From assembly GCF_029892045.1 (NCBI RefSeq), contig NZ_CP120368.1, positions 2,354,001-2,418,000 of the forward strand: DNA of 64,000 bases, written 5' to 3'. The translations under genes and the position numbers were made by a program. The stretch is from Sinorhizobium numidicum (GTDB lineage: Bacteria > Pseudomonadota > Alphaproteobacteria > Rhizobiales > Rhizobiaceae). The notes under the pieces are model-generated. The model made no database searches, was not told the origin of the DNA, and saw only the letters and a program-made list of their open reading frames with translations. Of this stretch, positions 6,378 to 49,066 are shown in pieces (positions within the stretch are counted from its first letter, which is position 1; each line of letters opens with the position of its first letter).

Positions 6378-7604
6378 TTACGCCGCCAGTGCCGCCTGGT
6401 CGCGGATCAGGTCCCCGAGCCGGCGGATGCCCTCGTCGATCATTTCGTCGTTGGCGCAGGAGAAACTCAAACGCAGCGTGTTTTCGCCGGAACCGTCCGC
6501 GAAGAAGGCGCGGCCCGGCACAAAGGCGACCTTGGCGGTCTGGATCGACTTCGCCAGCAATTCGGCGCCGTCCGTGCCCTTCGGCAGCGTCACCCAGACG
6601 AACATCCCGCCTTCCGGCTTGGTCCAGCTCACACCTGCCGGCATGTATTTTTCGAGCGCCGCCAGCATGGCGCTGCGGCGGTGCTTGTAGACCCTCTGGA
6701 TCTTCGCCACCTGCTGGTCGAAACCGCGCTTGGCGACGGTGCAGATTGCCATCTGGTTGATCGTCGAGGAATGCAGATCCGCCGCCTGCTTCATCAGCAC
6801 CAGTTTGCGGATTACCGGTGCGGCGGCGCAGACCCAGCCGACGCGAAGGCCCGGCGCCAGCGTCTTGGAGAAGCTGCCGCAATAGATCGTGCGCGTATTT
6901 TCGATGTCGCCCTTGCGGGCAATCTCCAGCGCCAGGATCGGCGGGATCGCCTCCCCGTCATAACGCAGCGACTGGTATGCCGCGTCCTCGATGACGGCGA
7001 TGTCGAGCTCTTCGGCAAGCGCAAGCACGCGCTCGCGGCCGGCGCGGTCCACCGTCTCGCCCGTGGGGTTGGCGAAATCGGCCGAAAGATAGGCGAACTT
7101 GACCCGGCCGCCTGCCTCGGCCGCCGTCTGGACGTAGGCTTCCGGCGTGCGGTTGCCGGAGGGGTTCAACTGATCGTAGGTCGGCTCATAGGCGTTGAAG
7201 GCCTGCAGTGCACCGAGGTAGGTCGGCCAGGTGACGAGCGCCGTATCATTCGGCGACAGGAACAGCTTGCCGAGATAGTCGAGCCCCTGCTGCGAACCGG
7301 AGGTGATGAAGATATTGTCGATTGTCGCCGGAATGCCGAGATCTGCCATCTGTTTGGCGAGCCATTCGCGAAGCGGGCGATAGCCTTCGCTGACTGAATA
7401 TTGCAGCGCGGCGCTGACGGATGGTCCGCCGAAGATTTCGGCATAGGCCTCTTTGAACTCGACATCCGGGAAAAGCGCGGGATCGGGAATGCCGCCGGCA
7501 AAGGAGATGATGTCCGGACGGTCGAGCAGTTTCAGAAGTTCACGGATTTCCGAGGCCTTCATCCGGCTCGAACGCGTCGCAAAAATGCTTTCCCAATCCA
7601 GCAT
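6378..7604 (-). CDS. PLP-dependent aminotransferase, class I/II (2-aminoadipate transaminase-like)
   Basis: A 408-residue fold-type I aminotransferase. The start MLDWESIFATRSSRMKASEIRE and the ISFAGGIPDP motif are typical of the LysN / 2-aminoadipate and broad-specificity aromatic/branched aminotransferase group. The PLP-binding Lys is in GSFSKTLAPGLRVGW, and the conserved Asn is in ANPTGE. There is no winged-helix domain, so it is an enzyme and not a MocR regulator. It is monocistronic and followed by a strong terminator at 6320-6356. The exact amino-group donor is uncertain. Confidence 0.88.
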   Translation of the reverse strand: MLDWESIFATRSSRMKASEIRELLKLLDRPDIISFAGGIPDPALFPDVEFKEAYAEIFGGPSVSAALQYSVSEGYRPLREWLAKQMADLGIPATIDNIFITSGSQQGLDYLGKLFLSPNDTALVTWPTYLGALQAFNAYEPTYDQLNPSGNRTPEAYVQTAAEAGGRVKFAYLSADFANPTGETVDRAGRERVLALAEELDIAVIEDAAYQSLRYDGEAIPPILALEIARKGDIENTRTIYCGSFSKTLAPGLRVGWVCAAAPVIRKLVLMKQAADLHSSTINQMAICTVAKRGFDQQVAKIQRVYKHRRSAMLAALEKYMPAGVSWTKPEGGMFVWVTLPKGTDGAELLAKSIQTAKVAFVPGRAFFADGSGENTLRLSFSCANDEMIDEGIRRLGDLIRDQAALAA

Positions 7605-7816
7605 GGCGGTTTCCTCGAGATTATTGGCGCGGGATCAGTGAAAGCCGTTTCCGCTCTATCCCGCCTTTCATTTTCAATTTTGAGGGACAGGATCACGCCG
7701 GCGAATTTATGTCAATATTATTGACCTATACCGCGCCGTTTTTGCCGCGTCGATAGCGGTATGGCGACAGGAACAGGCCCTCGCCCGCTCCTGGCTCCGA
7801 ATGCGGGAAGCTGCGA

Positions 7817-8458
7817 TCAGTTGCTGACAAATGCTGCGGCAACCGGCGCAACATGCGGCCAAACCTCGACGGCGCCGCGATAGATCATGTCGAGCGAGAC
7901 GTAGAGGATGATCGCCAGACCGACATAGGCGATCCAATGGTAGCGACCGAGCAGCCGGGCAATGAAGCTCGCTGCGACGCCCATCATCGCGATCGAAAGA
8001 ACGAGGCCGAAGACAAGAATCGACGGATGCTCGCGGGCGGCACCGGCAACCGCAAGCACGTTGTCGAGCGACATCGAGACGTCGGCGACGACGATCTGAG
8101 TTGCCGCCTGGGAAAACGTCTTTCTCGGGGCATTCGCTGCCTCGGCGCCTGCGATGGCGAGTTCATCGTGCCCGCCGGCGCGTAGCTCGCGCCACATCTT
8201 CCAGCAGACCCAGAGCAGGAGGAGCCCGCCGGCAAGCAAAAGCCCGATAATCGCGAGAAGCTGGACCGTAAAGATCGCAAGCACGATGCGAAGGACGGTG
8301 GCGGCAAGAATGCCGACCAGGATCGCCTTCTTTCTCTGCTCGATGGGCAGGCCGGCTGCGGCAAGACCGATAACGATGGCGTTGTCGCCGGCAAGCACGA
8401 GGTCGATGACAATGACCTGCATAAGCGCCAGCAACCCGGCGTAGCTAAAGATGTCCAT
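7817..8458 (-). CDS. TerC family integral membrane protein
   Basis: A 213-residue multi-pass membrane protein with about seven hydrophobic segments. The two family signature motifs with paired Asp/Asn are present: DLVLAGDNAIVI in the first helix and DVSMSLDNVLAVAG in the second half. TerC/YjbE-type proteins are linked to tellurite resistance and Mn export during membrane protein metallation. The metal here is inferred, not shown. No tellurite-resistance genes are next to it. Confidence 0.88.
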   Translation of the reverse strand: MDIFSYAGLLALMQVIVIDLVLAGDNAIVIGLAAAGLPIEQRKKAILVGILAATVLRIVLAIFTVQLLAIIGLLLAGGLLLLWVCWKMWRELRAGGHDELAIAGAEAANAPRKTFSQAATQIVVADVSMSLDNVLAVAGAAREHPSILVFGLVLSIAMMGVAASFIARLLGRYHWIAYVGLAIILYVSLDMIYRGAVEVWPHVAPVAAAFVSN

Positions 8459-8594
8459 ATGCGATAGTCCCCTTGAATGCCCGGGCGCGGGCGACGGTTA
8501 ACGCATAGTCATCCCCGGCCGTCGGATCAAGATCGCATGTGAGATCGTCAACGGTTCAGTCTCTTGCACATGCTGCAGGGCTCTCATCCAGGCG

Positions 8595-9290
8595 CTAATC
8601 CCCCGCCCCGTCTTCCGCGGTCAGCACGTGCGCTTCCCACTCGTCCCTCGGAATTTCAGTCCCAACCGAAAATTCAAACATGGCGACGCTCTTAATATCA
8701 GGTGCAACCTCGCATCTATATCTGATGTTGTACCAGTTTCCTTTGCTGCGAAGCGCGCCGCCAACGGCTTCGAGCACACGCCCGGCCAGGATCGTATCCG
8801 CCATGGCGTAGGCCACCAGAAAATCGGGCTCGAACTCGGCCTTCCAGTGATGAACCTGTTCCATTGCCTCGACATTGCAGAGCTGCACAATGCGCTCGCC
8901 GGTCGCCAGTTGCCACAATCCCTCGCGCGCTTTCTTGCTCCGGGGATCGGCCAATACCTTTGCGGAAAAGAACTGCGTCGCCCGGACCATCGCCGCCGGT
9001 TGGCGCGTCGTTTCGCTTCCTGACGATTGTGGCTGCGGCTCAGGTTCCTTCTTGATCGGTTCGGCTGGCTGAGAGGTGGCAGGCGGCTCGCTCGGCCTTT
9101 CGGCGATTGGAGGTGTCGCCGGCGTCTCGATTTGCTGAGGAGCAAGAAGCTCGACGGAAATCGCCTCTTCCTGCGGAGGGGGCAAACGACGCACGATCGG
9201 AAGGAGCGCCAACGACATGCCGGCGATCACATGCAGAGCGAGCGCTATTGCATGGTTCCTTAAATCGGAACGATTTAAGGATAAAACCAT
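8595..9290 (-). CDS. DUF930 domain-containing, membrane-anchored protein; start lies in a repeat
   Basis: A 231-residue protein if started at 9290. It has an N-terminal membrane segment (IALALHVIAGMSLALLPIV) and a Pro/Glu-rich linker (about residues 35-100). The C-terminal DUF930 domain (PRSKKAREGLWQLATGERI, then WYNIRYRCEVAPD) is a Rhizobiales family of unknown function. The layout resembles TonB/TolA, one anchor plus a periplasmic stalk. The first ATG of the coding frame, and about the first 14 residues, lie inside the RIME1-like repeat at 9249-9350. The next in-frame Met is at 9218, within the membrane segment. A start at 9290 therefore implies that the repeat supplied the initiation site. 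Confidence 0.78.
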   Translation of the reverse strand: MVLSLNRSDLRNHAIALALHVIAGMSLALLPIVRRLPPPQEEAISVELLAPQQIETPATPPIAERPSEPPATSQPAEPIKKEPEPQPQSSGSETTRQPAAMVRATQFFSAKVLADPRSKKAREGLWQLATGERIVQLCNVEAMEQVHHWKAEFEPDFLVAYAMADTILAGRVLEAVGGALRSKGNWYNIRYRCEVAPDIKSVAMFEFSVGTEIPRDEWEAHVLTAEDGAGD

Positions 9291-9350
9291 GCAGCAACTT
9301 AAAGCCTTACAGCGACCTTTGTGCGTCTGAAAAGACGCACGGCGCTGTAG
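9249..9350 (-). repeat. RIME1-like double-palindrome repeat
   Basis: A complete copy in reverse orientation: hairpin 2 (GCATGGTTCCTTAAATCGG with TTTAAGGATAAAACCATGC) is followed by hairpin 1 (TTACAGCG... with GTGCGTC/GACGCAC, ending CGCTGTAG). It overlaps the 5' end of the DUF930 gene. Confidence 0.88.
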
Positions 9351-9612
9351 TGCAATGCTCCACCAAGTCGTCCTCGGGTCCCGCCTATTCGTCTTCGTCC
9401 GCATTATGAAGCGACTATGCCGGCCGCCTTCCGGTCGACCGGGAAGATCTCGCAATGCACATGGCCAGGAACGAGCACGGCACGACATTGCCAGCGAACT
9501 GTTTTCATGGAAGCTTTCGGTAAAGGGAACACCCACATCTGATGTCGCGAAAGTTGCACAACCATGCGTTCGCAACAAGACTCCAGAGGAGAGCCGCAGG
9601 GAGGAACGACCT
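9291..9612. other. Divergent intergenic region, about 320 bp
   Basis: Apart from the end of the RIME1-like repeat, no gene or clear structure is seen between the DUF930 and methyltransferase genes. Promoters for both presumably lie here. Confidence 0.5.
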
Positions 9613-10221
9613 ATGCCGGAAGCCGAGGGCGATGAGACCGCCCTCTTCTACCGCGACAATGCCGCAACCTATGCGAACCGTGGCCGAAACGCGCCGACGG
9701 TGCGGCTCGATAAATTCCTCGCACGGCTGAAACCCGGCGCCTCCGTGCTAGAGCTCGGCTGCGGCGGAGGGCAGGACAGCGCCTACATGCTCACCAAGGG
9801 CTTCGAGGTGACGCCGACCGATGGCTCGCCGGAACTGGCAGCGGAAGCCACGCGCCTGCTCAACCGAAAGGTCGAGGTCGTCCGATTTGAAGACCTTTGC
9901 TGGCGCGAGGCATTTGACGGCGTCTGGGCCGAGGCCTGCCTGCTGCATGTGCCGCGCGCCGATCTGCCGGGCGTGCTCGCCCGCATCCGCGACGCTCTCA
10001 AAGGCGGCGGCGTATTTCATGCCAGCTTCAAGGCAGGCGAAGCGGAAGGCCGCGACGGTCTCGGACGTTACTACAACTATCCCTCGCGCGACTGGCTGAT
10101 GCGGCTGTTCGAAGATGCAGGCTGGATGGAGATCGCAATGAACGAAGCGGATGGTGGCGGCTATGACGGCAAGCCAACCCGCTGGCTGCATGTGGCGGCT
10201 GTCAAGCCGAGTTCACGCTGA
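9613..10221 (+). CDS. Class I SAM-dependent methyltransferase
   Basis: A 202-residue Rossmann-fold methyltransferase. The SAM-binding motif I is VLELGCGGGQDS, with the acidic motif II region TPTDGSPELA downstream. The post-motif WAEACLLHVPRADL matches the small UbiE/TehB-like class. The start at 9613 (MPEAEGD) has GGGAGGAAC 8 bases upstream; longer in-frame starts run into non-coding DNA. The acceptor cannot be inferred. Confidence 0.85.
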   Translation: MPEAEGDETALFYRDNAATYANRGRNAPTVRLDKFLARLKPGASVLELGCGGGQDSAYMLTKGFEVTPTDGSPELAAEATRLLNRKVEVVRFEDLCWREAFDGVWAEACLLHVPRADLPGVLARIRDALKGGGVFHASFKAGEAEGRDGLGRYYNYPSRDWLMRLFEDAGWMEIAMNEADGGGYDGKPTRWLHVAAVKPSSR

Positions 10222-42009: not shown

Positions 42010-42702
42010 TCAGTCGCGATACCGCTGCGGCGCCAGCGCCATCGTTTGCGCATAGGTCAGCGGCGAACGGTTACCTGGCATGTTCTCGTCCAGCACCAAT
42101 GTCTTGATGTCGTCGGAGCGGACGTCAACGGCTATGACAGACTTGAGCTTGTCGATCTGCCAGACGGCGTAGCCAAGTTCAGGGACATATCCGCAATCAC
42201 ACCCGCACTCGCCGCCGAGAATTTCTCGCGGCTCTGTGGGCAAAAACATAATCTGCGGCTTAGGTAATTTGTAGCAATGGCCTTCGTAGGCGTAGCCGTA
42301 TATTACTCCAATACTCTTCAGATACTCTCCATCATCTCCGCAGCAACTATCTTTAATATTGACATGCACAGGCAATGAACAAACTTCGGAACCTATAAAT
42401 AAAGCTAACGTAACTTTTTCCCCTTTGGCGCCAATAATTGTGTCAGACAGGTATTCGGCAAAGACTTTCTTGACAGCCATTGCTGCTTCTTTATTATCAG
42501 TCCCCGTAGCGGTCTTGTTTGATAGCGCGGCTTCTAGCCGCTCATCGATTTCCCTCTCACTAATCGTGAATATCGGCCGGCAAGCAGCCGGCCGGCCATA
42601 TAATCGCACCTCGCCAGGACGATACGAGGCGTATTCTGGGTCAGGCAATGTGCCTGGAGGTATACCGGCGCCGACGCCGGGATTTCGACAACAATCGCTC
42701 AT
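42010..42702 (-). CDS. Cysteine-rich protein of unknown family in the YcaO-TfuA operon
   Basis: A 230-residue protein with ten cysteines: C4, C5, C41, C108, C120, C121, C143 and the cluster ECGCDCG at 166-170. I recognise no domain. There is no signal peptide or membrane segment. The DNA is noticeably lower in GC than its neighbours. AAGGAGGGAG lies 2-8 bases before the ATG, a very strong site, and the gene is 18 bp behind the metalloprotease. It is the last gene of the operon. Candidate roles are the substrate of the YcaO-TfuA pair or a metal-binding partner; neither is shown. Confidence 0.8.
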   Translation of the reverse strand: MSDCCRNPGVGAGIPPGTLPDPEYASYRPGEVRLYGRPAACRPIFTISEREIDERLEAALSNKTATGTDNKEAAMAVKKVFAEYLSDTIIGAKGEKVTLALFIGSEVCSLPVHVNIKDSCCGDDGEYLKSIGVIYGYAYEGHCYKLPKPQIMFLPTEPREILGGECGCDCGYVPELGYAVWQIDKLKSVIAVDVRSDDIKTLVLDENMPGNRSPLTYAQTMALAPQRYRD

Positions 42703-42720
42703 TTCTCCCTCCTTTATGAC

Positions 42721-43905
42721 TCACCTTGAACCGATGATCTCACGCCACACAAAATTGGTTTCCAGTCGTTCGGCCGCCGCGCCGTCCGCCTTGGCGATGA
42801 TGGCACTCGCTGCCTGCGCCAGGGTCAACGTGTTTGGGTCAAGCGTCCGCAGCGAGAGGGCAAGCGCCTGCCCGATCGCATCACGCGCTTCCGTCAGTGC
42901 CCGCTTAAAAATGAGCGGCTTGACCCTGAAAGCCTCCGCCGTCGCCTGACGAAACCGGTCGAATTCGTCCCGGGCCAGGTCTCGAAGATCGAAATCCAGA
43001 AGGCTACTGTCCGCGCAGCCATTCGCGACCAGATCGCGATGATAAAGATCGACGATACTGTCAAAAATGGCTCCAACGAAGGGAAGCGCACGATCGTGCA
43101 CTTCGCGAGTCACAGCGGACATTTGCCGGAAATTGGTAGCAACGCGGATCTGGGTCTCGGGACTCGTTTCAGCAAACCGGTTCAGTTCGTTATAGAGCAG
43201 CAGATTGCCTTTCGTTCGCCGAAGAAGCCGATCGATCGCGGAATCGAAATGCAGGAACGAAATGAGCGACACAGCGTCCGAAAAGGCCTCGGAGAACGAG
43301 AAGAAATCGTCGTCGCGCGATATCCCACTTGGAACACCTGTCTCGGACAGCATTATGAGGTGCCCAACTTCGTGAGCGATCGTATCAAAATTCAGTGCGT
43401 AAGGCCGTTTGATGCCACCGATGCCGGAACAGCCCAGTTCCAGAAAACCGTAGCCCGCCTGTGCGTTGTCCCAATCTACGAAAGCGACGATTTCGAGCCT
43501 TGGAAACGTCTGATCGAAGAACCACCGGATCGGTCGGCCGAGATAACTCCGCCAGATGTCGAGAACGAAACGCACGCAGGCGTAGGCGTGAACGGCTAGA
43601 AATGGCCGTGAGGCTGGATCCAGGTTGTCGAAATGGCGGTCCGGGCCCGGCCTTGCCGGCGGGCGCCTTGCCCCGTCGAACGGCGGAAACCGGTTGAAAC
43701 CATATGGCTGCTTATCGTAAACAGCATCCACCACATACATCGTCGGGTCACTGGGGCCCGCACCGATTTCATCGCGTGCTATCGACAGCCAGACCCGATC
43801 CGGCTGTTCATATCCGGGAATGAAGGGAGGTTGCGGGAATATCCAGAAGCGCGTGCCTAGGCGCACGTCGCCGGATTCGAGGGCATCGTCCCGAAGCAGA
43901 CGCAT
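42721..43905 (-). CDS. Thermolysin-like (gluzincin) metalloprotease family protein, unassigned
   Basis: A 394-residue protein. HEVGH (178-182) is the zinc-binding HExxH motif, and SEAFSDAVSL (205-214) sits where thermolysin has its third ligand (Glu of the NExxSD motif), so Glu206 is the likely third ligand. The predicted fold is therefore gluzincin. No signal peptide or propeptide is seen, suggesting cytoplasmic action, which is unusual for thermolysin relatives. Its position 35 bp after tfuA suggests leader-peptide cleavage or substrate processing. GGGGGAGG precedes the start. Confidence 0.82.
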   Translation of the reverse strand: MRLLRDDALESGDVRLGTRFWIFPQPPFIPGYEQPDRVWLSIARDEIGAGPSDPTMYVVDAVYDKQPYGFNRFPPFDGARRPPARPGPDRHFDNLDPASRPFLAVHAYACVRFVLDIWRSYLGRPIRWFFDQTFPRLEIVAFVDWDNAQAGYGFLELGCSGIGGIKRPYALNFDTIAHEVGHLIMLSETGVPSGISRDDDFFSFSEAFSDAVSLISFLHFDSAIDRLLRRTKGNLLLYNELNRFAETSPETQIRVATNFRQMSAVTREVHDRALPFVGAIFDSIVDLYHRDLVANGCADSSLLDFDLRDLARDEFDRFRQATAEAFRVKPLIFKRALTEARDAIGQALALSLRTLDPNTLTLAQAASAIIAKADGAAAERLETNFVWREIIGSR

Positions 43906-43940
43906 CGAACAATTGCCTCCCCCGATTAGAAATCCGGCAA

Positions 43941-44762
43941 TTACGGATTCAATTTATAAGTGTTCACTAAATTTGAGTCAATGCCGCTCGCCTCCAAGTC
44001 CCTGAGGAAGGTGTTCGTTGCGATCCAGCGATCGGGCACGCACCCGCTGCCCCGGTCCAAAAGCCCCGGCGCGCCCCTTAGCGCAAGAAGCGCATCACGC
44101 CTTTTCTGCCCTATGATTTCCTTCCGTAAGTCCTCTGAACTGTCTTCCCGCCACCCAGCAGCCCGCAAGACGGCATCGATAGTGCGCTCGCGAAAATTCA
44201 TATTTCGCGCCATTGTTGTGAGTTGGTCACGCTCGCCGGGCGTGATGATGTTGCGCCGCATCAGGGCCGAAAACGTCCGCTGCAGATCGATGTGCGAATC
44301 CGTCAACGGAAGAAAGCCGAGTTGCGGCGGTCCCGAATGGACGGCCACCGCATCGTCCGGAGCCAGGGCGGGATGAGGAAAAGTGTGCAACGGTTTTCCG
44401 CCCGCATCCCGCCCCAGAGCAAGCCGCCAGCGACGGTACCATCTGTAGATCAGGCCGACACCGATCATGCCGAACCCATCGAGTTCCGCCGCCCGGAGAG
44501 CGCCCATGCTGGCAGCCCCGATCACGACGATCCCTTGCGCCATCGCCCAGAGGATTTCCTTGTGCCGGACGGCGGGCCTGTCTTCGAATTGGCCGTCGAT
44601 CAGCACCATCGCACGTGGCCGGAAAGCATGGGCAGCAAGCAGTATGTCGCCCTGCGCAGCCGGCTGCAGATAAATGGCATCGAGAACCGCCTCTGCCTCG
44701 GCGAGACGCAGTGTCGGGCCAAGAAACACCAGGATCGGAGCTTGTTTGTTCGTATCGGTCAT
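43941..44762 (-). CDS. TfuA-like protein with in-frame palindromic repeat
   Basis: A 273-residue TfuA family protein. Recognised by VFLGPTLRLAEAEAVL at the N-terminus and the core IGAASMGALRAAELDGFGMIGVG. TfuA works with YcaO enzymes to install thioamides, probably supplying sulfur; it is known from trifolitoxin and thioamide pathways. Residues 117-133 are encoded by a 49-bp family 2 repeat (44366-44414), so an about 18-residue segment (GRDAGGKPLHTFPHPA) is inserted where family members run straight into the PDDAVAVHSGP region. It starts 4 bp after ycaO. Confidence 0.88.
   Translation of the reverse strand: MTDTNKQAPILVFLGPTLRLAEAEAVLDAIYLQPAAQGDILLAAHAFRPRAMVLIDGQFEDRPAVRHKEILWAMAQGIVVIGAASMGALRAAELDGFGMIGVGLIYRWYRRWRLALGRDAGGKPLHTFPHPALAPDDAVAVHSGPPQLGFLPLTDSHIDLQRTFSALMRRNIITPGERDQLTTMARNMNFRERTIDAVLRAAGWREDSSEDLRKEIIGQKRRDALLALRGAPGLLDRGSGCVPDRWIATNTFLRDLEASGIDSNLVNTYKLNP
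44366..44414 (+). repeat. Family 2 palindromic repeat inside the tfuA coding region
   Basis: GGGCGGGATGAGGAAAAGTG... with ...GCATCCCGCCC, almost identical to the intergenic copies at 3702 and 22627. It keeps the TfuA frame open. CCAG occurs at both edges and may be a target-site duplication. Confidence 0.88.
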
Positions 44763-44766
44763 CGGC

Positions 44767-46011
44767 TCACCGCAGTACGAAAAAGGGAGACGCGCCAGGA
44801 AGGATGGTTCTCACGCATTGCACGCCGGTTTCGCGATCAGCTCCCACCGGCACGGCCAGTATCGGCCCGAGCCGCGCGGATATCACCCTGTCCATCAGTG
44901 CGCCGAGATCGGCGACGGCTGCCGATTGAGCTGCTGTCGCGGGCCTTGCCGACGCATTATCGAGAATAAGTCGGCGGGCGTTGGTAACCACGGCATCCGT
45001 GCTCCTTCTGTAATGCAGCCTGGTCTGATCGTCACGAGCGCCCGAGATCGCGCCTGCCCGCGCCGAGAGCGCTTCCAGCATTGCGCTCGATGCTGCAGCG
45101 GCAAGGCTCGGGCCTGCCGCATAGCCCTCCGTCGGCAGGGCCAGGATCGGCTCACCTGGACCTGTCTCTATCGTCTGACACCAGACCACGCGGACATTTG
45201 CTGGCGAAGGGGCCAGCCACAGGGCAAAGGATATCCCGCAGGCACTGGCAACGGAGAGGATGTAATCAACCCGGTCGCCCAAGCCGGTGGGGGCAATCCG
45301 CATTCGGTCGAAGAAGCCGTGGGTGGCAAAAGCGCGCGCGAGGGCATCGCGTTCCAAGCATTCCAACAGGCCATGTAGGAACGCGCCATAGCCATTCATG
45401 TGGCAGGCGAGCCCCGTGGTCGTACGCATGAACAAGCCATCACCAGCCGGCGGCGGATCGGTGTAACAGGTATGCACCAGTTCCAGGGGAACCGGTTGCG
45501 TGCAGCCCGTCGCAACGTCGACACCGGTAATCCAGGGTATCCTCCTTGCCCGCCATCGCGCCCGGCGATCCGGCAGCAGGAAATTTTCAAATAGGCCCTC
45601 GGCGATTTCGAGTTCATCGGCCGTGGCAAGAAACGTCCGCTCCGGCGGAATGGCTTCGGCATAGTAGCGCTCGAGCGACTCCATGATCGCCCCTATCGCC
45701 GCCTCCGCTTTCGTCAGGCCTCGCCCCAAAGACGTGACTTCGGAAAATGCGTCGGGTCGAACGGCCTGGACGACCGGCAGGCCGATCCGGTCAAGCCCCG
45801 TCAGGTCACCGAGGCGGGTTATCAGCGCACGGCGACAGAGTGGCAGAGTCGCGGAGAGAGCGCGTTCGATATCTTCGGCGCCAGGATGATGTGAGAGCGA
45901 CGCGTACAGACCCGAGAGAATGGAGGCATGAAGATCGGCGAGAGCGCTGCCAGCCGCTCCCGGAGCGTTCGTCTTCCTGCCTTCGGCTTCACCGGTCGAG
46001 GACAACACCAA
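44767..46011 (-). CDS. YcaO family ATP-dependent cyclodehydratase/thioamidase
   Basis: A 414-residue YcaO protein. ATP/Mg-binding motifs are LGRGLTKAEAAIGAIMESLE (Glu111...Glu114, Arg115) and ECLERD (217-222), with a third acidic helix SSAMLEALSAR. YcaO enzymes phosphorylate a backbone amide to form azolines or, with TfuA, thioamides. The C-terminus ends soon after the VRTILPG motif and lacks the PxPxP tail of azoline-forming YcaOs, which fits a TfuA partner. Translation starts at a TTG or GTG close behind AGGAG, overlapping the end of the upstream gene by 23 bp, so the two are translationally coupled. Confidence 0.9.
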   Translation of the reverse strand: MVLSSTGEAEGRKTNAPGAAGSALADLHASILSGLYASLSHHPGAEDIERALSATLPLCRRALITRLGDLTGLDRIGLPVVQAVRPDAFSEVTSLGRGLTKAEAAIGAIMESLERYYAEAIPPERTFLATADELEIAEGLFENFLLPDRRARWRARRIPWITGVDVATGCTQPVPLELVHTCYTDPPPAGDGLFMRTTTGLACHMNGYGAFLHGLLECLERDALARAFATHGFFDRMRIAPTGLGDRVDYILSVASACGISFALWLAPSPANVRVVWCQTIETGPGEPILALPTEGYAAGPSLAAAASSAMLEALSARAGAISGARDDQTRLHYRRSTDAVVTNARRLILDNASARPATAAQSAAVADLGALMDRVISARLGPILAVPVGADRETGVQCVRTILPGASPFFVLR

Positions 46012-49000
46012 GCTCCTGCATCGAATGCCTGGCTCGCGTCAGCAGGGCCGTTGCGCCCTGGCCTTCGGCGATCTCGATAGCAGAGCGCAAGTCTGCAGCA
46101 ACCGCGTCCTCGTTCGCCCCGGCCTGCGCATGAAGGATGGCGCGACAGCGATGCAACTCCGCCAGCCAGTAGGCGTGGCCGGTCTCCTCGGCTTTTTCGA
46201 TCGCTTCGTTCGCAACATCGATCGCAGACTCCAACTTGCCGGCACGCCCTAGCAACGCGGCATGCATGCAAAGATAGATCGGCAGGTCGGCGACGGCCCC
46301 GAGGTCTCGCAGGAGCAGCAGCCCATCTTGGAACCTCTTATGTCCGCTCGCGAGACTGCCGCGATGCGCCTCCGCCCAGCCTCCAAAGAGAAGCGACAGC
46401 CCGGACAGGGATTGCATTTCGTGCTTCTTGGCAAAACTCGCCATTCGCTCCGAAACGTTGATAAGCCGTTCAAAGTCCTCGCGATAAAAGGCCGAGACAG
46501 CTTCCGTATCGAGCGAATGCGCCTTGCTGGGCGCATGCGATATTCGGTCAACAAAAGTGATCATTTTGGAAAGCGCCGCGTCCGATGCTTTCGTCTGCCC
46601 CGTCAACCACAAGGAAAGCGACAGTTGACCGAGAGCGCAGACCTTCGCGTCGTGTCCGCCGAACTCCGTCCGGCTTTTCTTCGCCGCCTGCTCGTTATAG
46701 AGCGCCAGGCCGGCTTCAATGGCGTCCTTGGTCTCCCGGTGCCGGCCGAGGTTGAAATCGATGGCCCAGATGCAATGATTGACCTGAAGTTGAATTTCCG
46801 GATCATCGGCCTTCGCCAGCATGGCCTGCACTTCCAGGGCACGGTCGTGCATGACGTGAAAGTCCGACCCCGTGAGCCACCAGCCCCAATAGATCGGAAA
46901 CCATTTGGACTGATCCTCCATCGGCTGCCGGCGGGCAATTTCCACGCCGTCTTCATAGAGCTTGCGGGCGGGCGGCGAGTTCAGCCCGACCAGTCCGGTC
47001 AGGATTGGTCCCAGTGCCGTAAGCGCCGAAAGCTGCAACGGCTCGACCGTATGCCCATCGCCCACTTGGTCGCAAAGTGCCAGGGCATGTTCGAGGTAGT
47101 GTCGCGCTTCGATCATCGCCGACCGGCTCGAATTCTCCTTTCCGGCCAGTATGAACAACTCGATCGCCTCTTTCAGAAGCCCTGCCCGCTCCGCGTGCTC
47201 GGCGAGCGCGCCGACATCGATCCAGGGAGCGATCCCGCGATTTTCGCGCACTGCAGCAAAGAGCCGCCGGTGCAACATCTGCCGCTGTTTCCGCAACAGG
47301 GCCTTGTAGATCGTCTCCTGGATCAGCACATGCCGAAAACCATAGGCGACGCGCCCGGGCGCCCTGATCCGCATCAGGAATCCCGTCTCGCAGAGCATAA
47401 CCGCAGCACTCGCGAGCGCCTTCTTTCCGAAATCGGGTAACAGGGCCCGTAGCACCGGCAAATTGACATGCGTGCCGGCGACCGCCGCCGCTCGCGCCAC
47501 CTCCCTTGCGGAGCCTAGGTGCTGGAGGCGGGCGTTCAATATGGCCTCGAACGCCGAAATCTGAGTAGGTTTGATGCTTTCCGACAGGCTTGTGGCGTCG
47601 GATCCGACATTTTCCGACACCCACTGGCAGATTTCCTCGATGAAGAGCGGAACGCCGCCGGATATTCTCTCCGTCACGTCGAAGAGCTCGGGAAGCATGG
47701 CCCGGCGATGCTCCGGCCACCTCGCCTCGATCGCCAATCTCGTCTCGTCGCGATCGAGGGGACGCAGCGACAGGCGCGTCGGATCGACAGCGTCCAGCCA
47801 ATCCGAGCGAAAGCCGAGGCGCGAGGTTACGACGAGCAGAACGGGAAATTGGTGGATGACCCGCGCGGCCTCGCCAAGCAGGTCCTCGGACGTGGGATCG
47901 ATCCAGTGTATGTCCTCGACCGCCACCACTACCGGGCCGTTTCGACAGACGGCTTCGAGAGCGCGAAATACGGCGCCGCGGGCCTTCTCGCGGATCATCT
48001 TCGGATCGTCGTGCGACAGGCGCTCATTTCGCCCTTGCGCCCCAAGGAGATAGGTGAAGAGGTCGATGACCTCCGGGTCGCTGATGCCGTTGCGCTGGAA
48101 CACTGTCGCCACCGTGGCAGCCGTCAGGCCCAGTTGCCCGCCGCCCCTCGACATTGCGCCGGGAAAACTGTGCATCAAAGGGTGAAGCGTCGAGCGAAAG
48201 CCGCCGGGCAGGCATTGGAAAAAAAACAGCTTCGATCGCCTGTCACGCGTCTTTCTGCGGATTTCCCGCAGCAGGCGCGACTTGCCGATCCCTGCCTGTC
48301 CTTCGATCAGGAGCAGCGCTCCACGACCGTCGAGAACGCCGTCCCAGCATTGGGCAATCGAATTGAGCTCGCGTTCGCGATCGATGAGCGGACCGCCGAG
48401 TCTTCCGAAGGCATAGAACCGGTCAACCTCCATCCGGTGGCCGAGCGCGCGCCAAACCTTTTCGGGCTCGGAGAAACCTTTGAGCACCTTGCTGCCTTGA
48501 AACACGAAGGCATGCGAGCGGCCCGCCAGATTTCGCGTGTCCTCGGACACCAGAACGCTGTTCGGCGCGGCGATCCCCTCGATCCGAGTGGCCATCGCGA
48601 GGGCGGCCCCGGTGACCGGCTCCTGAGTCCCGTTCTCTTCCGGTGCCTCGCGGACGAGAGCGATGGATGTCGCGATCCCGACGCGAACACACAAATCGTC
48701 GCGTCCCGCTTCTCGACCGACGCGCTTGCAGCCCTCGATGATCTTCAGCCCCGCCCGGATCGCGAGCGAGGCCGCGTCCTTCGCATCGAGTTCGATCGGA
48801 AAGAGCGCGACCCCGCCGTCGCCGGCCTCGTGCTGCATGACGCCCGAATGCGAGGTTATCGATTGTTTCGCAGCTCGCTGGAAGGCGGACATCAGGTCCT
48901 GATAATCCTCGATATCCATCACCTGCATGAGATCGGTCGACCCGACCAGATCGTAGCAAAGGGCGGTTACGATACGCCGCTCGCCGCCAGGCACGGATGA

Positions 49001-49066
49001 GCGGCCGGGGCGCTGTGCACGCTTGCCCGCTCCTCGTGGTGTGTTGATCCGGCTTTCGCGCAGCAT
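45989..49066 (-). CDS. Class III nucleotide cyclase - AAA/STAND ATPase - TPR regulator
   Basis: A 1025-residue multidomain protein. The cyclase domain (about 30-210) has metal-binding Asp39 (CYDLVGST) and Asp83 (AGDGGVALF). The NTPase (about 225-480) has Walker A GQAGIGKS (256-263) and Walker B-like VVVAVEDIHWID. A long helical TPR-like half follows to the C-terminus. It is the first gene of the operon and overlaps ycaO. Such proteins act as ATP-dependent signalling or transcription-linked switches. There is no LuxR-type DNA-binding domain, so the output is unknown. Both Asp residues for catalysis are present. Confidence 0.88.
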   Translation of the reverse strand: MLRESRINTPRGAGKRAQRPGRSSVPGGERRIVTALCYDLVGSTDLMQVMDIEDYQDLMSAFQRAAKQSITSHSGVMQHEAGDGGVALFPIELDAKDAASLAIRAGLKIIEGCKRVGREAGRDDLCVRVGIATSIALVREAPEENGTQEPVTGAALAMATRIEGIAAPNSVLVSEDTRNLAGRSHAFVFQGSKVLKGFSEPEKVWRALGHRMEVDRFYAFGRLGGPLIDRERELNSIAQCWDGVLDGRGALLLIEGQAGIGKSRLLREIRRKTRDRRSKLFFFQCLPGGFRSTLHPLMHSFPGAMSRGGGQLGLTAATVATVFQRNGISDPEVIDLFTYLLGAQGRNERLSHDDPKMIREKARGAVFRALEAVCRNGPVVVAVEDIHWIDPTSEDLLGEAARVIHQFPVLLVVTSRLGFRSDWLDAVDPTRLSLRPLDRDETRLAIEARWPEHRRAMLPELFDVTERISGGVPLFIEEICQWVSENVGSDATSLSESIKPTQISAFEAILNARLQHLGSAREVARAAAVAGTHVNLPVLRALLPDFGKKALASAAVMLCETGFLMRIRAPGRVAYGFRHVLIQETIYKALLRKQRQMLHRRLFAAVRENRGIAPWIDVGALAEHAERAGLLKEAIELFILAGKENSSRSAMIEARHYLEHALALCDQVGDGHTVEPLQLSALTALGPILTGLVGLNSPPARKLYEDGVEIARRQPMEDQSKWFPIYWGWWLTGSDFHVMHDRALEVQAMLAKADDPEIQLQVNHCIWAIDFNLGRHRETKDAIEAGLALYNEQAAKKSRTEFGGHDAKVCALGQLSLSLWLTGQTKASDAALSKMITFVDRISHAPSKAHSLDTEAVSAFYREDFERLINVSERMASFAKKHEMQSLSGLSLLFGGWAEAHRGSLASGHKRFQDGLLLLRDLGAVADLPIYLCMHAALLGRAGKLESAIDVANEAIEKAEETGHAYWLAELHRCRAILHAQAGANEDAVAADLRSAIEIAEGQGATALLTRARHSMQELGVVLDR

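Follow-up and report, generated by a model that had tools for sequence, protein, structure and literature searches.

In a 64,000-nucleotide (nt) stretch of Sinorhizobium numidicum DNA, hereafter 'the window', five adjacent minus-strand genes form an operon that probably directs the synthesis of a thioamidated ribosomally synthesized and post-translationally modified peptide (RiPP). The 230-amino-acid (aa) product of its last gene would be the precursor, and the C-terminal tail of this protein the core. All positions are given within the window, and 'window' proteins are those of this operon. It is very likely that the operon represents a real conserved system that makes a RiPP from an unrecognised precursor family; thioamidation, assigned by analogy, is the likely chemistry. 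The initial annotation had described five tightly packed minus-strand genes, and we found all of the corresponding open reading frames (ORFs); in the 5′ to 3′ direction of the operon, the recomputed spacing is a 23-bp overlap followed by gaps of 4, 35 and 18 bp (Table 1).

Conservation of the five-gene set

A scan with YcaO produced 30 distinct named loci, chosen by YcaO similarity, from Ensifer, Sinorhizobium, Rhizobium, Chelativorans, Ferirhizobium and other Rhizobiales. Searches by tblastn with the five proteins located the five genes in one order and on one strand in 29 of these loci; in the 30th (L017) the contig ends inside the peptidase gene. With the precursor as a query, matches were detected in 38 of 394 sampled genomes of the same family (own genome counted), and 36 of the 38 were located within 3 kb of a TfuA match (123 of the 394 genomes were TfuA-positive). 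Some of the sampled genomes have contigs equal in length to those of named loci (for example 186,210 and 370,919 bases), so that the two collections cannot be treated as independent. The ycaO–tfuA–peptidase combination recurs in more distant genomes at 37–53% peptidase identity, and around weaker matches the gene order is mostly kept as sequence similarity falls. With one gene order in 29 of the 30 loci, and with the three-gene combination found again in distant genomes, the set exceeds chance. The initial annotation had made its reading of the operon as a system depend on conservation of the last two genes beside ycaO–tfuA, and this conservation is borne out by the counts given above.

In a class-wide sample the precursor query matched two of 385 genomes, the own genome being one of them. 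The peptidase profile had matches, many of them weak, in 13 of 398 genomes of a phylum sample and in 15 of the 385 genomes of the class sample; all seven phylum-sample matches above 300 bits fall in the class of the window. Five loci with weak peptidase-profile matches (L132–L136) were fetched and contained no YcaO or TfuA match. One of them, from the own genome (L134:7964-10099; G000:C2, ∼2424 kb, ∼6 kb past the window), encodes a 711-aa protein with 45.6 bits to the peptidase profile and no Pfam match.

The two precursor matches without a TfuA match within 3 kb were one on a contig of only 3.2 kb (genome G473) and a 64-aa orphan remnant (genome G512). The latter ORF (L084:9498-9680) matches only the C-terminal 61 precursor residues, is more than 100 kb from the nearest TfuA match and looks like a decayed precursor copy.

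The predicted precursor family and its C-terminal repeats

Judging by its sequence relatives, the 230-aa protein singled out in the initial annotation as cysteine-rich is probably the precursor that was missed there. The statement that no short precursor is evident holds for short ones; the likely precursor is a long protein. The stress on cysteine is not sustained: the number of Cys residues per family protein varies from at least 2 to 19 among the sequences listed (10 in the window protein), and none of the Cys positions is kept throughout the more distant alignments, A4 and A5. In total, 116 precursor-family proteins were 132–366 aa long, with one member from S. meliloti WSM1022 among them.

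In alignment A1 (50 sequences) the start is fixed, the middle is hypervariable and the C-terminal part is again conserved, with residues 131–210 being the most conserved domain of the precursor. The middle varies in both length and sequence even among close relatives, and both its flanks are fixed. The intermediate group (A5, 18 rows) has a conserved single tail, PGKRSP..YA...MAHR.GRL. We compared the profiles of these groups with each other and with the profile of the repeat-bearing group (A4, 19 rows) by hhalign. A1 matched A4 with 96.8% probability (E 2.3e-10) over window residues 131–210, ending at 210; A5 matched A4 with 98.2% (E 5e-14) and A1 matched A5 with 100% (E 8e-44). Thus, the single-tail and repeat groups are homologous only as far as residue 210; beyond it, one has a 20-residue tail and the other has repeats. 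Because the homology ends at the position where the repeats of the relatives begin, residues 211–230 are the predicted core; the window tail contains Ser and Thr. A Foldseek search of the precursor domain against PDB produced nothing at E ≤ 0.001.

The repeat-type set consisted of 22 same-class loci, two of which (L126 and L174) are cut before the precursor, leaving 20 assessable. C-terminal tandem repeats with units of 4–6 residues were found in 19 of these 20 distant precursors (counting L180, which is outside A4). The units are VSGAR/VSGAK (L067, L098, L127, L169, L170, L171, L173, L175, L176 and L179), GMNAR (L097, L167 and L172), GANAR (L168), SGGKAY (L066), RAVMAS (L128), DLVGRS (L130) and GMNV (L131). 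The repeat-type precursors are 149–313 aa long, and YcaO adjoins TfuA in 21 of the 22 loci. The loci L167–L186 were picked from the TfuA table; the peptidase is present in 12 of these 20, and the eight loci without it had no precursor match either.

A periodicity scan blind to precursor identity covered 1110 ORFs with a minimum length of 100 aa, taken from 70 loci in which every group was represented; all 16 ORFs that it flagged were precursors, and those of L131, L167 and L180 were missed. Within the arrays, which are contiguous and whose units were located by residue pattern (this limits the non-synonymous counts), the ratios of synonymous to non-synonymous codon pairs were 84:0 (L127), 81:0 (L067), 61:0 (L097), 76:0 (L169) and 25:0 (L130), and in laxer arrays 108:53 (L171), 107:36 (L176), 70:9 (L128) and 35:6 (L098). 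Since residues are fixed while codons vary in contiguous arrays, the natural reading of these sequences would be that the repeats are held by selection on the peptide and do not come from recent slippage.

Several units have a small residue directly before Arg or Lys. VSGAR and some other units contain Ser; Cys, Ser and Thr are all missing from GMNAR, GANAR and GMNV, which argues against azolines as the shared chemistry and in favour of thioamides. The initial annotation had proposed a thioamide- or azoline-forming system; of the two, the thioamide stays as the best reading.

We propose the following pathway. The leader domain (residues 131–210), with the variable insertion before it, would display the C-terminal core. 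YcaO with ATP would activate a backbone amide in the tail, and TfuA would deliver sulphide, with a ThiS-type carrier as the source by analogy, so that the amide oxygen is replaced by sulphur. TfuA frees sulphide from ThiS thiocarboxylate according to the available text of PMC13185837; the own genome has two ThiS-family matches above cut-off, the use of which by TfuA is predicted. The thermolysin-like peptidase would free the core after modification. In repeat-bearing relatives, one cut per unit, before bulky hydrophobic V, M or L, would yield many copies of a short thioamide peptide, and a neighbouring GNAT enzyme may sometimes N-acetylate the released peptides. Control of the operon would be exerted by the cyclase-ATPase-TPR protein.

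Operon proteins and neighbouring genes

Table 1. Features of the operon, with positions in the window
Feature	Positions	Strand	Annotation and basis
Cyclase-ATPase-TPR protein, 1025 aa	45989..49066	(-)	Class III nucleotide-cyclase domain, AAA_16 ATPase and TPR; Pfam, NCBIfam
YcaO, 414 aa, TTG start as called	44767..46011	(-)	Predicted ATP-dependent backbone-thioamidating enzyme; Pfam, NCBIfam
TfuA, 273 aa	43941..44762	(-)	Predicted sulphide-delivering YcaO partner; Pfam, NCBIfam
Thermolysin-like (M4/M36 fold) zinc metallopeptidase, 394 aa	42721..43905	(-)	Predicted core-releasing; invariant columns and model
HEVGH zinc motif, peptidase residues 178-182	43360..43374	(-)	Invariant columns; E206 and D210 also invariant
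Predicted RiPP precursor, 230 aa, 10 Cys	42010..42702	(-)	Conserved N-terminus, hypervariable middle, conserved domain, C-terminal tail
Precursor hypervariable middle, ~residues 38-129	42316..42591	(-)	Alignment A1
Precursor conserved leader domain, residues 131-210	42073..42312	(-)	Homology (hhalign) to leader of repeat-bearing precursors; model
Predicted single core, tail residues 211-230 (NRSPLTYAQTMALAPQRYRD)	42013..42072	(-)	Site where relatives have tandem repeats

The adjacent ycaO and tfuA genes both have recognisable domains, with Pfam scores of 157 bits for YcaO and 127 bits for TfuA (both above cut-off). In the 1025-aa protein AAA_16 scored 59 bits, the cyclase domain fell under the Pfam cut-off (19.2 versus 21.9) and TPR was weak; the peptidase and the precursor had no Pfam match at E ≤ 1. 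The top NCBIfam models were TIGR03266 (McrA-glycine thioamidation) for YcaO, with 113 bits versus the equivalog cut-off of 365, and NF033432 (McrA thioamidation) for TfuA, with 156 bits versus 235.2. TIGR03903 (TOMM kinase/cyclase) scored 298 bits on the 1025-aa protein (cut-off 705.75) with ∼990 residues aligned; the alignment starts at model position 283, so that the N-terminal part is missing from the window protein. Among solved structures, 6xp8 was the sole match of TfuA (E 7e-22) and 6pe3 the best match of YcaO (E 2.8e-6). The own genome has one precursor gene, two YcaO matches and two TfuA matches; the closest named homologues of the peptidase and the precursor are from Sinorhizobium.

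In the peptidase, H178, E179, H182, E206 and D210 are invariant among 18 diverse sequences, which makes an HExxH motif with a downstream ExxxD. The AlphaFold2 model has a predicted local distance difference test (pLDDT) score of 84 and a predicted template-modelling (pTM) score of 0.87. Searched with Foldseek, the model matched thermolysin and M36 peptidases, the best match being thermolysin (E 4.7e-5, template-modelling score ∼0.5, 11–12% identity). With this motif and this modelled fold, the HExxH protein is a thermolysin-like M4/M36 (gluzincin) peptidase. The peptidase profile had only weak matches to angiotensin-converting enzyme among solved structures (E ∼0.03). Thermolysin favours a hydrophobic P1′ residue, which suggests one cut per unit, before V in VSGAR and before M in GMNAR; the GANAR unit has no bulky hydrophobic residue and is left unexplained by this idea. 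In an unrooted peptidase tree of 65 rows the window group forms a single clade with full support and a branch separates it from the repeat group, with L128 placed beside the single-tail side on long branches; because the root is not placed, the tree does not settle the order in which single and repeated tails appeared.

That the operon has a built-in regulator, as was suggested initially, also stays the best reading. We predict that the 1025-aa protein acts as a sensor or regulator; in the window group its output as a cyclase is doubtful. The large cyclase-ATPase-TPR form was present in all 30 window-type loci. A cyclase-domain protein was found in 17 of the 22 repeat-type loci (15 of the short kind, two large); of the others, L066 has a related TPR regulator without a cyclase domain, L126, L174 and L176 are cut, and L131 had no cyclase-domain protein in the sequence examined around the locus. 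TIGR04510 (peptide-modification cyclase) matched a relative's small cyclase only (55 versus cut-off 400). We then considered the positions that we take to have metal-binding and transition-state roles. In 60 large cyclases (a set redundant across two locus sources), the first metal Asp is present in 55 (Glu in five), the second in all 60, the transition-state Arg in all 60 and the transition-state Asn in three; in small cyclases this Asn is present in 20 of 21. A normally active cyclase in the window group was rejected given the loss of the Asn in 57 of 60 large forms, and for the same reason we make no claim that the window operon signals through cyclic nucleotides.

Neighbouring genes were clustered in 70 loci (31 window-type, 17 intermediate and 22 repeat-type). 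A conserved sixth gene (transporter, immunity or dehydrogenase) was rejected as a candidate: with the five families and the repeat-group small cyclase set aside, the widest extra cluster covered only 13 of 70 loci, all window-type. According to a GNAT profile, GNAT genes stand beside 11 of the 22 repeat-type clusters (L066, L067, L097, L127, L168–L173 and L175), next to the cyclase or the precursor, and are of at least two kinds; eight of the 11 were checked by Pfam and all eight were positive. The profile also matched in window-type loci L003, L018 and L020, but far from the operon.

A second TfuA in the own genome (L184, G000:C1:1160000-1176000; 7643-8368) has no YcaO nearby; its neighbours include an ANTAR response regulator and NMT1-like binding proteins. 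The seven other sampled genomes of the genus had two or three TfuA matches each. The second YcaO of the own genome, 404 aa (L065, G000:C2:2630000-2645000; 6872-10142), has no TfuA beside it and overlaps a 104-aa ORF that matches nothing in Pfam and overlaps in turn with a TPR protein; this is possibly a separate YcaO peptide system.

Alternative readings, known systems and significance

Several observations weigh against the view of the operon as a RiPP pathway with the 230-aa protein as precursor. The window tail is single, conserved and unrepeated, and its assignment as the core follows from positional homology. Among the repeat-type precursors, L180 has only a loose, degenerate hydrophobic-S/A-G-A-M/R series, and L129 has no repeats, just an Arg-rich tail. 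In L131 (G233:C1) TfuA, the peptidase and the GMNV precursor are together, with the only YcaO match of the genome on another contig (L189, G233:C5:85546-86493). A leader of 130–210 residues with a hypervariable insertion is unusual, and neither Pfam nor NCBIfam returned a RiPP recognition element (RRE) domain for the five proteins. An exporter or immunity gene common to most of the 70 loci was not found, the widest candidate being an ABC-ATPase cluster in 11 of 70. The precursor model is only moderate (pLDDT 70, pTM 0.60), and the other four models reached 52–55.

We consider it unlikely that the 230-aa protein functions in its own right as a stable protein and is thioamidated inside its conserved domain in the manner of McrA. 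In favour of this idea is the conserved motif YGYAYEGHC (residues 135–143), an aromatic-Gly-aromatic series with Cys at +7, spaced as in the McrA thioglycine site (LGFFGFDLQDQC) in the available text of PMC5589413; the motif belongs to the most conserved stretch, 131–210, YcaO and TfuA score best, though under cut-off, on McrA-thioamidation models, and YcaO enzymes can modify whole proteins (uL16, in the available text of PMC13063428). However, the Gly is replaced by Ser in L081, the motif is disrupted in L128, L129 and L131, and its Cys is not kept throughout more distant groups. YGYAYEGHC is also modelled as two strands and a turn, which would account for its conservation. A McrA-like thioglycine at this site was therefore set aside; moreover, it gives no reason for the tandem repeats. 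Formation of azolines or an amidine by YcaO, with TfuA doing something else, appears quite improbable. YcaO enzymes do such chemistry elsewhere, the regulator resembles the TOMM kinase/cyclase family, and suitable residues exist (Ser in VSGAR and other units, Ser and Thr in the window tail); still, the GMNAR, GANAR and GMNV units of relatives offer no Cys, Ser or Thr, the domain results for the five proteins include no E1-like or ocin-ThiF partner, and TfuA pairs with thioamidation in the characterised thioamide systems considered, as far as the available texts go (trifolitoxin TfuA is not settled).

The repeats could also be thought of as a short structural tail of the pentapeptide-repeat kind on a protein that is a scaffold or regulator and not a precursor. 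Here, the pentapeptide model PF00805 scored 17.2 bits on L127 (cut-off 20.2), and the repeats in the repeat-type profile gave scores reaching 29 bits, mainly with the solved chains beta1, 6beta1 and loop designs, which we take to be engineered solenoids. Nevertheless, the periods differ between members (4, 5 and 6), the arrays, at ∼16–72 residues, would make a short solenoid, the Rhizobiaceae form has an altogether different tail, and the peptidase and TfuA adjoin the precursor in the complete loci examined; we find this explanation very improbable. Scarcely credible is a Cys-rich metal or redox protein matured by YcaO–TfuA: the ten Cys of the window protein speak for it, but the idea was already largely refuted by the alignments, given the variable Cys counts and the lack of an invariant Cys described above.

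The reading as a thioamidated RiPP has its nearest characterised analogue in thiovarsolin (varA/varY/varT) of Streptomyces varsoviensis. In the available text of PMC6511847, a repeating YcaO–TfuA precursor carries a thioamide between Pro and Arg of the APR unit, and the product is N-acetylated; absorbance near 270 nm and loss of H2S served there as marks of the thioamide. Common to both systems is the YcaO–TfuA pair, and the thiovarsolin precursor family spans from non-repeating members to five core repeats. A further likeness is that the thiovarsolin thioamide lies just before Arg of N-acetylated products, and here a small residue precedes Arg or Lys in several units and GNAT genes stand beside half of the repeat-type clusters. 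The thiovarsolin system is, according to the same text, actinobacterial, with precursors found within 20–120 aa, a heme-oxygenase, VarO, and no specific protease in the cluster, whereas the window system is alphaproteobacterial, with long repeat-type precursors that have a conserved domain, a thermolysin-like peptidase and a cyclase-domain regulator. The APR/GPR core repeats are absent here, being replaced by the units listed above or by the single window tail. None of the five operon proteins has a heme-oxygenase domain like that of VarO; beyond the operon, neighbouring genes were grouped by clustering, with no domain search aimed at VarO. The McrA thioglycine system (available text of PMC5589413) resembles the window operon in its YcaO and TfuA models; it differs in the gene neighbourhood and the proposed substrate, and the window scores are under the equivalog cut-offs. 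Judging by model names, TIGR03903 and TIGR04510 share with the 1025-aa protein the cyclase-ATPase-TPR layout and the link to peptide-modification clusters, but the window protein is below the TIGR03903 cut-off and without the N-terminal part of that model.

TfuA-related clusters of Rhizobium and Sinorhizobium were mined in PMC8120280; according to its available text, more than 500 were counted in Rhizobium, with precursors sought by RiPPER, and the window operon type is probably among them. The default precursor range of RiPPER is 20–120 aa (available text of PMC6511847), and a precursor of 150–310 aa could be overlooked because it lies outside this filter. In the part of PMC8120280 that was available, supplement aside, the text describes no long precursor, thermolysin-like peptidase or cyclase, and no description of this five-gene layout was found in the accessible portions of the open-access literature, supplements aside. 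What appears to be new is the precursor family and the layout; the kind of RiPP is already known.

As a fuller picture, which we hold tentatively and rate a little short of an even prospect, the operon would belong to a separate alphaproteobacterial family of thioamidated RiPPs, in which a leader domain is joined to a single conserved core (Rhizobiaceae) or to many cores of 4–6 residues, matured by the thermolysin-like peptidase and controlled by the cyclase-domain regulator. Multi-core members would yield thioamide peptides of ∼5 residues, often N-acetylated and produced in large amounts within the cell to serve as signals, metal ligands or enzyme inhibitors, and not as antibiotics for export; the window form would be a later collapse to a single fixed product.

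The operon supplies a concrete candidate substrate for one conserved type of TfuA cluster, for which precursors were earlier guessed from short ORFs. If the reading is true, it would add a precursor architecture in which single and repeated cores are interchangeable behind a conserved leader domain, as well as a natural series of different short thioamide peptides. It would also add a protease class, M4, outside the metalloproteases named in the available text of a RiPP protease review (M1, M16, M61, M103, M50 and M79; PMC10885120). The precursor family is also relevant to how precursors with many cores originate or collapse.

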